The notes below the pieces were generated by a model, which was not told the DNA's origin, made no database searches, and saw nothing but the letters and a program-made list of their open reading frames with translations. The position numbers and the translations under genes are program-made. This document shows, piece after piece, positions 1-59,210 of a stretch of 64,000 nt of DNA. This DNA is from Cornus controversa (taxonomy: Eukaryota > Streptophyta > Magnoliopsida > Cornales > Cornaceae), in NCBI GenBank assembly GCA_026545225.1, contig CM048851.1:31681956-31745955 (forward strand), in the 5' to 3' direction. The stretch's first letter is position 1. Each line of letters begins with the position of its first letter.

Positions 1-3000
1 TCTCCAATACTTTGTTTATGTAGGCTTTCTGAGATAATCCTAATGTCCCTTGAGATCTGTCTCTATGAATCTCTATGCCAATGACATAAGAGGCTTCACC
101 CATATCCTTCATATCAAAGTTTTGAGAGAGAAACCTTTTTGTTTCTTGTAGCAAACCTAAGTCATTACTGGAAAGTAGAATGTCATCCACATATAAGACT
201 AGAAAAATGAATTTGCTCCCACTGATCTTGAGGTATATACAATGATCAACCGCATTCTCTTCAAAACCAAAAGAAGATATCACATTGTGAAACTTTATAT
301 ACCATTGACGGGAAGCCTGTTTTAGTCCATATATGGATTTCTTTAGTCTACAAACCAAGTGACTTTCCTTATCTAAACCAAATCCTTCAGGTTGAGTCAT
401 GTAAACCTCTTCCTCTAAATCTCCATTGAGAAATGTCGTTTTCACATCCATTTGATGTAGCTCTAAATCATAATGAGCTACTAATGCCATGATTATTCTA
501 AATGAGTCCTTCTTTGAAACTGGAGAGAAGGTTTCATGGTAATCTATGCCTTCCTTTTGAGTAAATTCTTTAACTACAAGTCTAGCTTTATATCTTTCTT
601 TATTACCATTTGAGTCCATTTTGGTCTTATAGACCCATTTACAGCTAATGGCCTTGACTCTTTTAGGTAATTCAACAAGATCCCAAACTTCATTTGCTAG
701 CCATAGAATTCATCTCATCCTTCATAGCATCATACTAAAATGTGAATTTATCGCCACTCATGACTTGTGAAAACGTAATTGGATCATTCTCAATATCAAT
801 GTCACAGTCAGATTCTTGTAAGTACACCAAATAATCTGAAGAAATTGTAGTTTTTCTTTCTCTAGAGGATCTTCTTAATGGGATATCGACAGTCTCATTT
901 TGAGATTGTTGAATATCACCCTCCATGGCAATCGGTTCTTCATTGAGTGGCAAGGTTTGAATTGGTTGTTCTTCCTCAATGACATTTTGTAGAACATCTT
1001 GAAAAACAACAAACTCAGATGTAATTGCAGGTGTAGGTACTGGATCCTGCATTTCCTCAAAGGTTAAACTTTGAGTTTGTGCACTCCCACTAATGTTGCC
1101 ATCCTCAAGAAATTTTGCATTTCTTGCTTCAACTATTTTCATATTATGGGTAGGACAATAAAACTTATATCCCTTGGATCGATCTGCATAGCCAATGAAA
1201 AAACCACTAACTGTTTTTGGATCCAATTTTCTCTCTTGTGGATTATACAGTCTGACCTCAACTGGACAACCCCAAATGTGTACATGCCTTAAACTTGGTT
1301 TTCAACCATTCCATAACTCAAAAGGAGTTTTAGGAACTGCATGCTTTAGTGGGAACCCTGTTTAAGATGTATACAGCGGTTTTTAAGGTCTCACTCCACA
1401 AGAATAATGGGAGATTGGAGTTGCTAAGCATACTCCTTACCATATCCATTAAAGTACGATTCTTTCTTTCAGCTACACCGTTCTGATATGGTGAGCCAGG
1501 CATCGTATACTGTGCAACAATTCTATGTTCCTCAATGAATTTTGTAAATGGACCTGGCTTTTATCCTGTTCCCGTGTACCTGCCATAGTACTCCCCACCT
1601 CTATCTGATCTCACAATCTTAATTACTTTATCTGTTTGTTTCTCTACTTTCACCTTATAGACCTTAAAAGCATTTAATGCTTCAGCCTTCTCAAATAGAA
1701 GATAGAGATACATATATCGTGTGTGATCATCAATAAAGGTGATGAAGTATTTCTGACCATTTAGACATAGTGTAGGAAAAGGTCCACAAATATCAGTATG
1801 TATGATTTCTAAAGTGTTAGAACTCCTCCTGGCACCCTTCTTGGTCTTGTTGGTCTGTTTGCCCTTAATACAGTCCACACAAGTACCAAAGTCAGAGAAA
1901 TCAAGAGTCTGGAGGACCCCTTCATTCACTAACCTCTTAAGTCTCTCTATGGATATATGTCCCAATCTCCTATGCCACAACATAGAGGATGTTTCATTCA
2001 CAATACTCCTCTTTATGCCAATACTTTTGGTTGTAGTAAAAAGATTAAAATCACAAACTGGATCTAGACATAGTTTATACAAACCACCATCTAGAAGGCC
2101 AGTACCAACAACAACAGAGTTTTTAAACAAGGTTACAGAACGGTCACAAAAACTGAAAGAAAAACCCAAAGGTTCAGGTCTGGAAATAGAAATTAAGTTT
2201 CTAGAAAATGATGGAATATAAAAGGTCTTTTCCAAATCTAAAACAAAGCCAGTTTGTAAAACAAGTCTAAAGGTTCCAACAGCCTCCACATGTGAACGCA
2301 TGTGGTTTCCTGAATAGATGCAACATTCACTTCCCATCGGATTCCTTTGGTTTAGAAAACCCTGCATAGTATTGGTAACATGGATTGTAGAACCAGAATC
2401 AATCCACCAAGTATTATTACTAACACAAACCATATTAGATTCATAACATACTAATGAGATGAGATTACCTTTCTTTTTAAGCCAAGCTTGAAACTTCTTG
2501 CATTCTCTTTTAAAATGTCCTGTCTTTTTGTAGAAAAAGCACCTGATGGGGTCTTTATTGCCAGATTTGATAACTGACAGCTTTTTATTCTTCTCATTAT
2601 TAGAAGAACTCTCCCCTTTATACCAATTCTTCCCTTTTCCTTTTCCATGAGAGACTAGATGGACACTTTCTAGACCCTCCTACTTCAACCTCCCTTCCTC
2701 TTGAACACACATGATCAGTAACTCATTAATTGACCATTTATCTTTATGTGTGTTATAAGAAATCTTAAATGGTCCAAATTGATGTGGAAGAGAGTTGAGT
2801 ATGAAATGGACAAGAAAGGACTCTGTAATCTCAATCTCAAGAGACTTTAGTTGTGCTGCAATGTCTCTCATTCCCATAATGTGCTCACGCACTCCTGAAG
2901 TACCATTGTATTTCATGGATGACAATTCTTTCATTAGAGTACTAGCCAGAGCCTTATCGGAACTTGCAAATTGTTCCTTAATAAATTGAAGATATTCCTT

Positions 3001-4044
3001 CACTTTAGTGTTGTCTAGAATGGATCCCCGAATACTTTTTCTCATATGAGACTTAATAAGCATCAAACTCAAGCGGTTGGATCGCTCCCACCGTTCATAT
3101 GATGCTTTCTCACCTGGCGTACTAATTTCAGTGGGAACAGGAGGTTCTTCCACACGGATAGCCAAATCAAGATCCATGCATCCTAATGTAAGGAGAATTT
3201 TCTCCTTACAATCTTTATAATTGTCACCATTCAGAAACGGGATATGTGATGATTCCTTCAATAAATAGGTAGATGATATAGCTGCAAAAATTAATAAAGG
3301 ATGCTTACTAACGTGTAATGAAAACAATAATATATTGAAAATTCAACCCACGTTAAATATTCCAGAAACAAATCATTGCATCATTGTAACCATCCTGTCG
3401 GTAAAAGCTACAACATACTATTAATTTGTAAAATATCATTTATAACAGAATAATTAAATTTAAGATATTGAAATAGAAAACTCTATACCTGTGGGCATTT
3501 AGAATATTTCTAAAACAATATCTCTTCCATATATAATTTCATTGCAATTAACCTCGTATATGTGACCTCCCTGTGGGGCCAAGTCACTGTCTCAATGGTT
3601 AATTTTAAACTTTAATGTTATTTACATTTTTCAAGATTCACGATACTTTGGCTATTCTAGAATCAGGCAAAATGTATTAACTTTATAATGACATTATTAA
3701 CAGGCACTAAAACATTACCTATATATATATATATATGCAACATATAACATGTATGGTATTACAGACAGTGAACGTGTACAATTACTTCACTACAATATCA
3801 TACATAATTTAGAGAGATCATGAATATCAAAGGATCATGAATATCTATTCTAGAAAATCATATTCTTGTCATGTAGAATCAATAATCACATATAATGCAT
3901 TTAAATTTAGTATATTCTGGCATGTCAATAATATGACTCTAAATCATGTAAAAAAGCATCAGAAACTTCATACGCTTTTCACATTTTAGGCATATTCTTA
4001 ACATCATATCAATTCAAATCAAAAACCAAACTGGAGTATTTTAA

Positions 4045-5081: not shown

Positions 5082-5117
<36 letters not shown>

Positions 5118-48977: not shown

Positions 48978-49493
48978 ATGGCAAACTCTAGTGCCCCATT
49001 TGTGTGCTTGATCTTAGTCTTGTGCTTTGTTGTTCCAAGCTTGGCTACAGATTACACAGTTGGTGACTCAACTGGATGGGCACTAAATGCTGATTATACC
49101 ACCTGGACTAGTGGAAAGACCTTTTCTGTTGGTGACACCCTTGGTGAGTACCTCATATATATATATACACACACACACATCACAACATTAATTATATATG
49201 ATTAATTGATAGATGATCAACAAGTTTGTATTATTTGTTACACACACACATATATATACACATCACAACATTAATTATATATCTTTAATTGATAGATGAT
49301 CAACAAGTTTGTATTATGTAATACAAACTTGTTGATCATCTATCAATTAAAGATATATAATTAATGTTGTGATGTGTAATACAAACTTGTTGATCATCTA
49401 TCAATTAAAGATATATAATTAATGTTGTGATGTGTATATATATAATACAAACTCGTTGATCATCTATCAATTAAAGATATATAATTAATGTTG

Positions 49494-49538
<45 letters not shown>

Positions 49539-49999
49539 CAGTGTTACACACTTTATTGATTGTGAATGCTAATTTAATTTGTGATTTTGATTACATGGTA
49601 CTAGCGTTCAATTACGGTAGTGGTCACACTGTGGATGAAGTGAGTGCAAGTGACTACAACACTTGCACAGTAGGCAACGCAATTACTTCAGACAGTAGTG
49701 GGGCGACCACAGTCACTCTCAAGACCACTGGGACACATTACTACATATGTGGTGTGATTGGCCATTGTGGCAGTGGCATGAAGCTAGCCGTGACTGTGGC
49801 AGCAGGCGGCGCTGCCACGTCGCCACCGGGAAGTAGCCCGCCTTCTGGGATTACTCCGCCTGCCGGCACCACCACCACTACCCCGACACCACCTAAGGCG
49901 CCGTCCACTGTCCCAGAATCATCTTCAACGGCTCTCTCTCCATTTGTTGGTCTTTTAGTTACTCTATTGGTCGCATTGTTCAAGTTTGTTATTGTTTAA
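48978..49999 (+). CDS. Phytocyanin (uclacyanin-type blue copper protein), GPI-anchored
   Basis: Two exons, 48978-49143 and 49605-49999, join in a GCG codon to give 186 residues. The single intron position is the one usual for the family. A signal peptide (about 1-23, ending SLA) precedes a plastocyanin-like domain (about 24-122). Type-1 copper ligands are His63, Cys104, His109 and Met114; Met as the axial ligand separates it from stellacyanins and from ligand-less early nodulin-like proteins. Cys76 and Cys110 should form the disulfide. A Pro/Ser/Thr stretch (about 125-165, [10 protein letters not shown] type) suits arabinogalactan glycosylation. A hydrophobic C-terminus suits GPI attachment. 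It should be an apoplastic, membrane-tethered copper protein acting in electron transfer or wall development. The intron is unusually palindromic. Confidence 0.94.
49179..49500. repeat. Five-copy direct and inverted repeat filling the phytocyanin intron
   Basis: A unit of about 57 bp (CATCACAACATTAATTATATA to GATCAACAAGTTTGTATTA) occurs twice forward (49179-49233, 49261-49317) and then three times inverted (about 49319-49376, 49378-49437, 49444-49499). The axis is near 49318. (AT)n follows. The copies are almost identical, so the expansion is recent. Confidence 0.9.
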
Positions 50000-50345
50000 C
50001 TAGTCTGGCACTCTGGCCAGGACAGAGGCAGTGCTTTCCTTAATTCCCTCTTTCCAAGTTTTCTAATTTCTCTCTCAGTATTTGTATTTGAGATCTTGTT
50101 TGATTTGAGTAGGTTATTTCACTTATTTCTGATTAGATCATAATTATTGTATCATACCTATACTTTTTTTCTCCTTAATTGTTTCCTTGAGGAGTCTTTA
50201 GTGGAAACTAATCACAAAAATTAAATATTTTTCTGTAGTAAATATTCTATTTTTCATCCATTAACATGTCCTTCTAATTTTAAAGCATTTACATTAGTGT
50301 CATTAACAAACAAATAAAGCTATAAATATAAGGTATTAAAATATT

Positions 50346-51744
50346 GGATAAATACCACTTACAACCCTTTCAGTTTAGGCAACATCCCGACTAGAACCCC
50401 TCAAGTTTCAATAATCTCAACTATACCCCCTATAACTAACGTCGTCAATTAAACTATCGATTTTTGGTAATTTTATGAATTTACTTCTGATTAAAATATT
50501 TAATTTAATTAATAAAAATTAGTGATCCTAAAATGACCAAATTGCCCTCTATCTCCCCATCTCTTTCCTCTCCATTTCTCCTCTTTTCTCTCTCTCCACT
50601 ACCAAAGCACACCACCAACTCAACCGGCCACCATCACATACCGGAGCACCATCGCTAGAAAAATAGAGTCAAAGTTTAAACCAGCACCACCGTCAACCAC
50701 CACAGACGGCAACGAAATAAATAATAAGAGACGGCTCAATGGGAACCACCACATAATCCAAGATTTTTTTCTTGCAACAAATGAATAAAAGACTCAAGAT
50801 TGCAAGAACAAGGACACCACCAACAACAATTCTAACAACAAGCCCAGTGGAGATGCCTGATGAGCTTGACGGAGGTGATGGAGACGTTGAGGTTAACGGA
50901 GGTGGTGGCGAAGATCTTGCTGTCCCGGTAGACGATGGTGGACTTCGATTCACTGGCGACGACGACATTGAACTCGCCGGAGGAGGTGGAAATGAGGAAG
51001 AAGGCAGCGTTGGAGGCGGCGACCCGGTAGATGACGGTGGTGGCGAAGAGGTTGATGGAGCTAGAGTTGACGACGACGGAGGAGAAGTAGTTGGCTCTAC
51101 GGGTGGTGGAGAAGAAACAATCGGCGCAACCGGAGGTGGCAGAGAAGCAGCGGGAGGGGGAGATGTCGCAAGAGGTGTCAGATTAGATGGAGACGGGTAA
51201 GTCGTCGCCGCCGACGGTGATGTACTATTGGTCGATGGTGGGGATGTGGGAACCGGTGCTGCTCCCAGCAGGGATGATGACATTATAAGATTCCATCGAT
51301 TTCTAGAGGGATTTGGTTAAGGCTTTATTTTCTGTAAATATATATATATATATATATAAAAGAATATATAACATATAGTATATAGATATTATAAATATAA
51401 ATATATATATATATAATATATAAGAATATATACCATAGAGAGAGAAAGAGAGAATGGGTAGCTAGTGTACATATATGTACATTTGTTTTATAAGTTAAGG
51501 GTACTTTCGTAATTGAGCATTTCTTATTAAGGTTAAAGATGCCATTTTATGCATGAGAAGGGCAAAATAGACCATTCATACACTTTTCTGGTGTTGATTC
51601 TGTTTGCTGCTGACGTCACACTAATGAAGGGGGTAAATCGATACGTGAACCCAAAATTGAGGAGGTGTAGTCGGAATTATTGAAACTAAAGGGAGTTTAG
51701 TTGGAATATTGCCTAAACCGAGAGGGTGTAAGTGGTATTTACCC
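50346..51744. mobile_element. Pack-MULE, 1399 bp, carrying a PERK gene fragment
   Basis: Terminal inverted repeats of about 100 bp or more begin GGATAAATACCACTTACA and GGGTAAATACCACTTACA and include CAGTTTAGGCAA / CGGTTTAGGCAA. The centre carries GC-rich host-gene sequence at 50693-51283 with an adjoining CT-rich leader. Flanking 9-mers (TAAAATATT and TAAGTGATA) match only partly, as expected for an aged duplication. The same inverted-repeat family forms the small element at 51776. Confidence 0.8.
50693..51283 (-). CDS. Captured PERK receptor-kinase N-terminal fragment, open frame
   Basis: A 196-codon uninterrupted minus-strand frame lies wholly inside the Pack-MULE. Residues 1-142 are a Pro/Ser/Thr-rich extensin-like region with repeated SPPP/SPPSS motifs. 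Then comes GISTGLVVRIVVGGVLVLAILSLLFICCKKK, the single membrane helix and stop-transfer that ends exon 1 of proline-rich extensin-like receptor kinases (PERK). After CCKKK the sequence leaves the family, consistent with capture ending at or beyond the exon 1 donor. The kinase domain is absent. If expressed it would make a membrane-anchored wall-facing stub that could compete with full PERKs. Expression is unknown, and it may be merely passenger DNA. Confidence 0.7.
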   Translation of the reverse strand: MSSSLLGAAPVPTSPPSTNSTSPSAATTYPSPSNLTPLATSPPPAASLPPPVAPIVSSPPPVEPTTSPPSSSTLAPSTSSPPPSSTGSPPPTLPSSSFPPPPASSMSSSPVNRSPPSSTGTARSSPPPPLTSTSPSPPSSSSGISTGLVVRIVVGGVLVLAILSLLFICCKKKILDYVVVPIEPSLIIYFVAVCGG

Positions 51745-51775: not shown

Positions 51776-52053
51776 GGGTAAACACCACTTACACCCCCTC
51801 AGATTAGGCAATATCCCGACCAAACCCCTTTTAATTTTAATATTCTCGACTACACTCTCTGTCAATAACGTCCGTCAATTTTTCTCTCTTGTTGACGTTA
51901 GCAAATTTCGTTTGTTTGTTATCGTGGCACTAATAGAAGGGAGAAATTGATACATAAACCCAAAATTCAGGGGGTGTAGTTGGGAATATTGAAACTAGAG
52001 AGAGTCTAGTCGAAATATTACGTAAACTGAGAGGGTGTAAGTGGTATTTACCT
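51776..52053. mobile_element. 278-bp MULE-type MITE of the Pack-MULE's family
   Basis: The ends GGGTAAACACCACTTACACCCCC and (inverted) AGGTAAATACCACTTACACCC match those of the neighbour at 50346-51744, with the TTCAATA/TATTGAA block at similar depth. Arms nearly meet in the middle, so it is an internal deletion derivative. It is inserted about 30 bp from the larger element. No clean 9-bp duplication is visible. Confidence 0.75.
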
Positions 52054-52333
52054 TATTGTCCTGCTTTTAAATATTTTTAATAATCTATATACTTATTATA
52101 ATCATTTCTTATATAATTTTTTAAAATTTGTAATTATGGTTAATTGAATTAAAGAATATATTTTTCTTTGATAATTGAAGAATTATTATATTTATAGTTT
52201 TATTTGTTTGTCAATGGCACCAATGTAAATAACTTGAAGCTAGAAGGGTATATTGATTGATGAAAAAATAGAACATTTATTACAAAAAATCAGGTATTTT
52301 TGTAATTGGTTTCTACCAATCACTAAAGCGACT

Positions 52334-58654: not shown

Positions 58655-59050
58655 CTAAAGCAACAACGCCGACACCAAGACGAGACCAGCCACGGATCCA
58701 ACGACGGTGACTCTGTTCAGAGTGGCGACATTGCTGGGAGTCGACGAAGGAGATTCTCCGGGAGAAGAAGACATCGACGGAGGCACGGCGGTGGAGGGAG
58801 ACGAAGCGGGAGCTTCGGAGCTTGGAGGAGCAGGCGGAGAAGCAACGGGAGAGGAGGTCGGTGCGGTTTTGGGAGCCGAGGTCGGTGGAGACACGACGGG
58901 AGACGGCGTCGGAGGAGTTGCCACCCGTGGCGGTGAAGCAACCGGAGTTGCCGTCGGCGATACAGTCGGCGATGCTCCCGGAGCCTGAGCGATAGCAGAT
59001 CCAACCGCCAAAGCAAATATCAGTGCACAGACAACGCTCGAGTAAGCCAT
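58655..59050 (-). CDS. Classical arabinogalactan protein (AGP), GPI-anchored
   Basis: An intronless frame of 131 residues starts at the ATG at 59050. An in-frame ATG 11 codons upstream is rejected because the signal peptide MAYSSVVCALIFALAVGSAIA then follows directly. The mature protein starts QAPGASPT and is made of Ala-Pro, Ser-Pro, Thr-Pro and Val-Ser-Pro dipeptides (about residues 23-108), the non-contiguous Pro pattern that directs Hyp-arabinogalactan addition. The C-terminal hydrophobic tail (VTVVGSVAGLVLVSALLL) after a small-residue Asn/Ser region is a GPI-attachment signal. Family length fits classical AGPs of the AGP1/4/10 kind. It should act at the plasma membrane-wall interface. 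A TATA box lies at 59211-59220. Confidence 0.93.
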   Translation of the reverse strand: MAYSSVVCALIFALAVGSAIAQAPGASPTVSPTATPVASPPRVATPPTPSPVVSPPTSAPKTAPTSSPVASPPAPPSSEAPASSPSTAVPPSMSSSPGESPSSTPSNVATLNRVTVVGSVAGLVLVSALLL

Positions 59051-59210
59051 TCTTGCCCTCTTCTCTCTCTTCAAACAACGCAACAGATGATTTTAGAGAG
59101 AGAAAAAGAAACCTTGAACGTTGAATCCACAAAAACACTAGTATGGAGAAAGAAAGAGAGTTTTAGAGAGAGAGAATAGGGTGTGTGAAGCAACGATGGG
59201 AGAGGAACTC

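Follow-up and report, generated by a model that had tools for sequence, protein, structure and literature searches.

According to the available text of two papers, more than 3000 Pack-MULEs have been described in rice (PMC4858842, PMC8903248), and the accessible part of one of them gives Ka/Ks values below 1 for some MULE-derived genes (PMC4858842). As far as the available text of three papers goes, the capture of GC-rich fragments by Pack-MULEs is well documented (PMC4858842, PMC8903248, PMC13317346). With Ka/Ks below 1 in some of the rice MULE-derived genes, the question of function is settled copy by copy. A literature search for “Pack-MULE” together with “proline-rich extensin” returned no paper with both. 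The gene captured at the locus described here, of the proline-rich extensin-like receptor kinase (PERK) type, may so far be unreported from Pack-MULEs, in which case it simply adds another captured gene.

The window analyzed here, a 64,000-nucleotide stretch of Cornus controversa DNA, contains a 1399-bp element (50346..51744) whose end at 50346 (GGATAAATACC...) pairs with the end at 51744 (...GGTATTTACCC) with 81.6% identity over 87 bp. The left terminal inverted repeat occupies 50346..50431 on the plus strand and the right one 51660..51744 on the minus strand, the latter matching the terminal 21-mer exactly. This 21-mer has four matches in the window at up to three mismatches (shuffle mean 0.00) and 776 genome-wide at up to two mismatches, vs. 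1 for a backward-read control pattern. The element has no recognizable transposase of its own; comparison of the window with five transposase-like proteins gave no match.

The left arm (50346..50667) is common to family members without the PERK tract, and element positions 1 to ~317–334 match alone at many loci. It is followed by filler (50668..50765), of which parts of the first 87 bp are present at other loci lacking the PERK tract, and then by the captured PERK exon-1 tract (50766..51294, minus strand), which matches positions 5100–4554 of the parent locus (L016) and runs from 11 nt 5′ of the ATG to the CCKKK codons. The right arm (51295..51744) is matched exactly, from 51295 onward, by two elements with other interiors, C6:45536016 (L028) and C2:94587905 (L037), which fixes the capture junction at 51294/51295, base-exact from both sides. 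As a separate observation, these two elements reuse the arm boundary at 51295, as if it were a preferred capture point. The 196-codon open frame (50693..51283, minus strand) draws residues 1–173 from PERK and residues 174–196, a 23-residue C-terminal tail, from the filler; a Pfam search of the frame gave no match. It encodes a Pro-rich ectodomain and membrane helix of PERK type, and within the codons for GISTGLVVRIVVGGVLVLAILSLLFICCKKK (50765..50857, minus strand) a glycine of the parent is replaced by arginine inside the helix. The cytoplasmic kinase domain is absent, since the frame ends 23 codons past CCKKK and the capture stops within exon 1.

A search of the 771.7-Mb genome with the 196-codon frame gave 11 matching stretches, including that of the window itself. 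Two of these (C7:45073564-45074100) fall in exon 1 of the parent gene (C7:45073552-45074187), on the same contig as the window, and this exon is 80.7% identical to the element at the DNA level over 554 bp. In the product of exon 1, a Pro-rich ectodomain is combined with a membrane helix and CCKKKKK. The exons that follow show similarity to protein kinase families (PF07714, 1.6e-15 and 2.2e-09) and to 33 sequences of solved structure, the best of which are plant receptor kinases. We take the parent to be a PERK gene from this architecture. A locus on C9 that matches more distantly (40% identity) likewise combines a Pro-rich region with a helix; Pfam matches to viral membrane proteins, below the cut-off for parent exon 1 and above it for the C9 locus (PF07204), were ascribed to helix composition and set aside. 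The GC content of the captured codons is 55% in the window copy and 64% in the parent.

An earlier note on this DNA had proposed a Mutator-like element with matching inverted ends at these coordinates, an uninterrupted 196-codon frame and the capture of PERK exon 1, and had named the absence of a PERK parent from the genome, or of the inverted-repeat family elsewhere, as grounds for abandoning the proposal. The element, frame, parent and family are all present, and the comparison with genomic PERK sequence that the note suggested for the capture breakpoints defined the tract given above. The note’s further claim, that the element keeps the CT-rich leader of PERK, did not hold: PERK homology ends at 51294, the CT-rich run (minus strand, near 51437–51454) belongs to the right arm shared with members without PERK, and the parent’s own CT-rich leader is absent from the window copy. 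The window element is confirmed as a Mutator-like element with a PERK exon-1 capture, and the name Pack-MULE fits the family.

Target duplications were assessed in 19 elements with both ends located. The 9-bp flanks agree at 9/9 bases in nine and at 8/9 in five, while 182 mismatched flank pairs from 14 elements, taken as a control, reached 8/9 twice and 9/9 never. The others agree at 7/9 (the C3 copy), 6/9 (one element), 5/9 (the window copy and C2:81122) and 4/9 (a sibling in the window), where the ends of C2:81122 and the sibling may be a base or two off. The flanks of the window copy (TAAAATATT vs. TAAGTGATA) thus contain no recognizable duplication of its own; two other copies of the PERK tract have exact 9-bp duplications, C1 with TAATTTATT and C6:56957 with TAAACTTTT.

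The sibling, a 278-bp element with the same ends (51776..52053), lies 31 bp beyond the PERK element and has no recognizable 9-bp duplication. Both are enclosed by an outer inverted repeat (left arm 50198..50331, plus strand; right arm 52186..52319, minus strand; 79% over 135 bp), which makes a nested, older element likely. Elsewhere in the window, tandem and inverted 60–80-bp repeats cluster at 49155–49520, with complementarity of up to 100% over 67 bp. The frame at 49475–49999 (plus strand) resembles part of a phytocyanin-like gene, the frames at 735–3342 (minus strand) resemble a Ty1/copia retrotransposon polyprotein, and the frame at 58655–59092 (minus strand) resembles a classical arabinogalactan protein.

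Candidate transposase partners came from elements sharing the family ends. A 6164-bp element has the same ends, an exact 9-bp duplication (TAAGTAATA) and a SWIM finger (7.3e-8). With four of its frames, Pfam searches returned no match at E 0.01. When two frames were searched at E 1, one yielded two matches that stayed below their cut-offs, and a short SWIM piece alone passed. A relative of its transposase at C1:94064492, ~2.2 kb from an exact family end, matches DBD_Tnp_Mut (5.4e-14) and has a SWIM match (L061) just under the cut-off, and a third such locus (C4:54515542) lies 2.2 kb from another exact family end. None of the partner frames searched matched PF10551, the MULE domain proper, and an intact autonomous element was not found. 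These similarities tie the ends to elements with a MuDR-type transposase; the partners found are decayed.

Five MULE-domain proteins (L054–L058, among the 150 places listed) were considered as the partner transposase and dropped: the 6164-bp element was matched once and weakly (24% over 41 aa, 5.8e-4), the four other elements and the window not at all. They resemble FAR1-type host genes. The element at C3:57709119 (L040) and its relatives have a different interior between the same ends, recurring at many loci, which could be a second captured gene or older filler. A search with this interior, in which 40 of 95 candidates were scored, gave 63 stretches, several at known family members, and no clear parent gene was seen among them.

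When the middle of the element alone served as query and all 16 candidates were scored, 22 stretches were obtained, of which eight represent six elements and the parent. The remaining 14 are short (43–101 bp): 13 lie in filler, and one, on C4, lies in the PERK tract (74% over 101 bp). The six carriers of the PERK tract are the window copy, C3:46552412, C6:56957100, C6:32047461, C2:94575784 and C1:113043893. The C3 and C6:56957 copies align to nearly the whole window element at 83–84%; most of the left arm is missing from C6:32047461, and C2:94575784 lacks the right arm. The latter arm was sought in the family piece 11 kb away (C2:94587905), but this has another interior and the terminal repeats of an intervening insertion were not seen, and it was treated as a separate element. 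The membrane-helix codons of the C1:113043893 copy are broken by a 283-bp insertion.

All six copies have the same downstream PERK breakpoint (position 5100 of the parent locus), and the upstream limit agrees within 12 bp in five. The C2 copy extends 30 bp further out, and its homology with the PERK 5′ leader is longer by ~30 bp than that of the other copies. Alignment with the parent shows a 30-nt gap and a 12-nt insertion (11 nt in C2) common to the six copies, indels that could also be changes of the parent since capture. Given the common downstream breakpoint and indels, a single capture followed by spread fits best for all six. Over the captured codons, each copy is 85–91.5% identical to PERK and 81–87% to the other copies, and no copy is nearer to another copy than to PERK (one tie). 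This pattern fits a radiation soon after capture while the PERK gene stayed constrained.

The earlier note had taken the uninterrupted frame to hint at a function and had looked to dN/dS below 1 between copies; neither expectation was supported. Four of the six frames contain stops or frameshifts, those of the window and C3 copies being uninterrupted, as weak constraint could also leave them. Differences between the window copy and the parent fall evenly on codon positions 1, 2 and 3 (19, 18 and 20 of 168 each). In a neutral null of 2000 runs, the observed changes were dealt among like bases, with CpG kept apart. The window copy has 19 synonymous changes, 37 nonsynonymous changes and 0 stops, vs. 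neutral means of 14.8, 40.5 and 0.68. For all copies, the counts take in changes on the parent branch and ignore indels. The probability of so few nonsynonymous changes is 0.12 for the window copy and 0.94, 0.89, 0.16, 0.81 and 0.96 for C3, C6:56957, C1, C6:32047 and C2, so that none of the six, each compared with the parent, departs significantly from neutrality. The nonsynonymous-to-synonymous ratio lies under the neutral expectation in two (0.71 in the window copy and 0.75 in C1), neither significantly. The open frame is under no detectable selection, and its changes look like drift.

Because 39% of the 2000 neutral simulations of the window copy were free of stops by substitution, the integrity of a frame captured with a Pro/Ser-rich fragment argues only weakly for function. 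Among the three complete copies, the captured tract is 81.8–85.2% identical and the arms 87.0–91.4%; faster decay of the tract runs opposite to the expectation for a constrained frame, and its GC- and CpG-rich make-up may add to the difference. C>T plus G>A changes exceed those in the opposite direction by 42:3 in the window copy and by ratios from 28:3 to 65:3 (46:2 in one) in the other copies, a bias that fits methylated, unconstrained DNA, the methylation being presumed from the spectrum. Judged from these comparisons, the open frame most likely survived by chance, in a Pro/Ser-rich reading frame poor in stops, and has no protein role.

These results bear on several other readings of the locus. 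Translation of the 196-aa frame would yield a kinase-less membrane stub acting as a PERK decoy, for which the frame offers the parental ATG, ectodomain and membrane helix intact. Such a protein is very unlikely: codon positions, simulation and the comparison of tract with arms all lack a selective signature, most copies are broken, the helix has an arginine in place of the parental glycine, and only 11 nt of PERK sequence 5′ of the ATG were carried along. The unrecognizable target duplication of the window copy might instead suggest a degenerate PERK paralogue whose inverted ends arose by chance, with no transposon capture. This reading has a negligible probability, given two further loci that align over near-full length and family ends by the hundreds, and the exact duplications around the same PERK tract in C1 and C6:56957 in effect refute it.

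A role through RNA is somewhat less improbable. Transcripts of the element could give rise to small RNAs with matches to the parent PERK gene, which they would damp in trans. Over the membrane-helix codons, 47 nt of the window copy still match the parent exactly, and the copy shares 48 24-mers with the parent, vs. 24 to 39 in the other five. According to the available text of a 2026 review, sequences captured by Helitrons, Pack-MULEs and Sirevirus elements in maize act as siRNA reservoirs (PMC13317346). The C>T/G>A bias would agree with methylation of the copies, but it is expected of any silenced transposon, and the identity of the captured codons to the parent is only 85–91.5%; we regard this reading as improbable, though the least so of those set against the main account. 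The stronger version, in which the dispersed PERK fragments jointly form a small-RNA source tuning the parent, is a shade more doubtful still; if true, it would mean that a cell-wall receptor was rewired by a transposon burst.

We consider it very probable that the window element is one copy of a small Pack-MULE subfamily that passed through capture, spread and neutral decay, its frame inert as protein. A non-autonomous MULE would have taken up ~530 bp of the PERK first exon, probably in a single event, and the composite would then have moved, presumably by transposition, to the six places where it now lies. Mobilization probably occurred in trans, through a MuDR-type transposase of same-ended elements now represented by the decayed partners. 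The copies would afterwards have been silenced and have decayed without detectable coding constraint, mainly via C>T/G>A changes, as expected if their cytosines were methylated. With the parent, breakpoints, six copies and decayed partners all locatable, the locus serves as a clean case study of how transduplication proceeds in a plant genome.

Like the exon-1 product of PERK genes, the element frame has a Pro/Ser-rich ectodomain, a membrane helix and a basic stop-transfer; unlike these genes, the element lacks the kinase exons and almost all of the PERK 5′ leader and adds 23 unrelated C-terminal residues. Like the rice Pack-MULEs, it is non-autonomous, has MULE ends, belongs to a family with 9-bp duplications, and contains a GC-rich fragment from a GC-rich parent, and as far as the available text on the rice elements goes, it differs from them in nothing essential. 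The window element is an ordinary further example of the well-known Pack-MULE kind.
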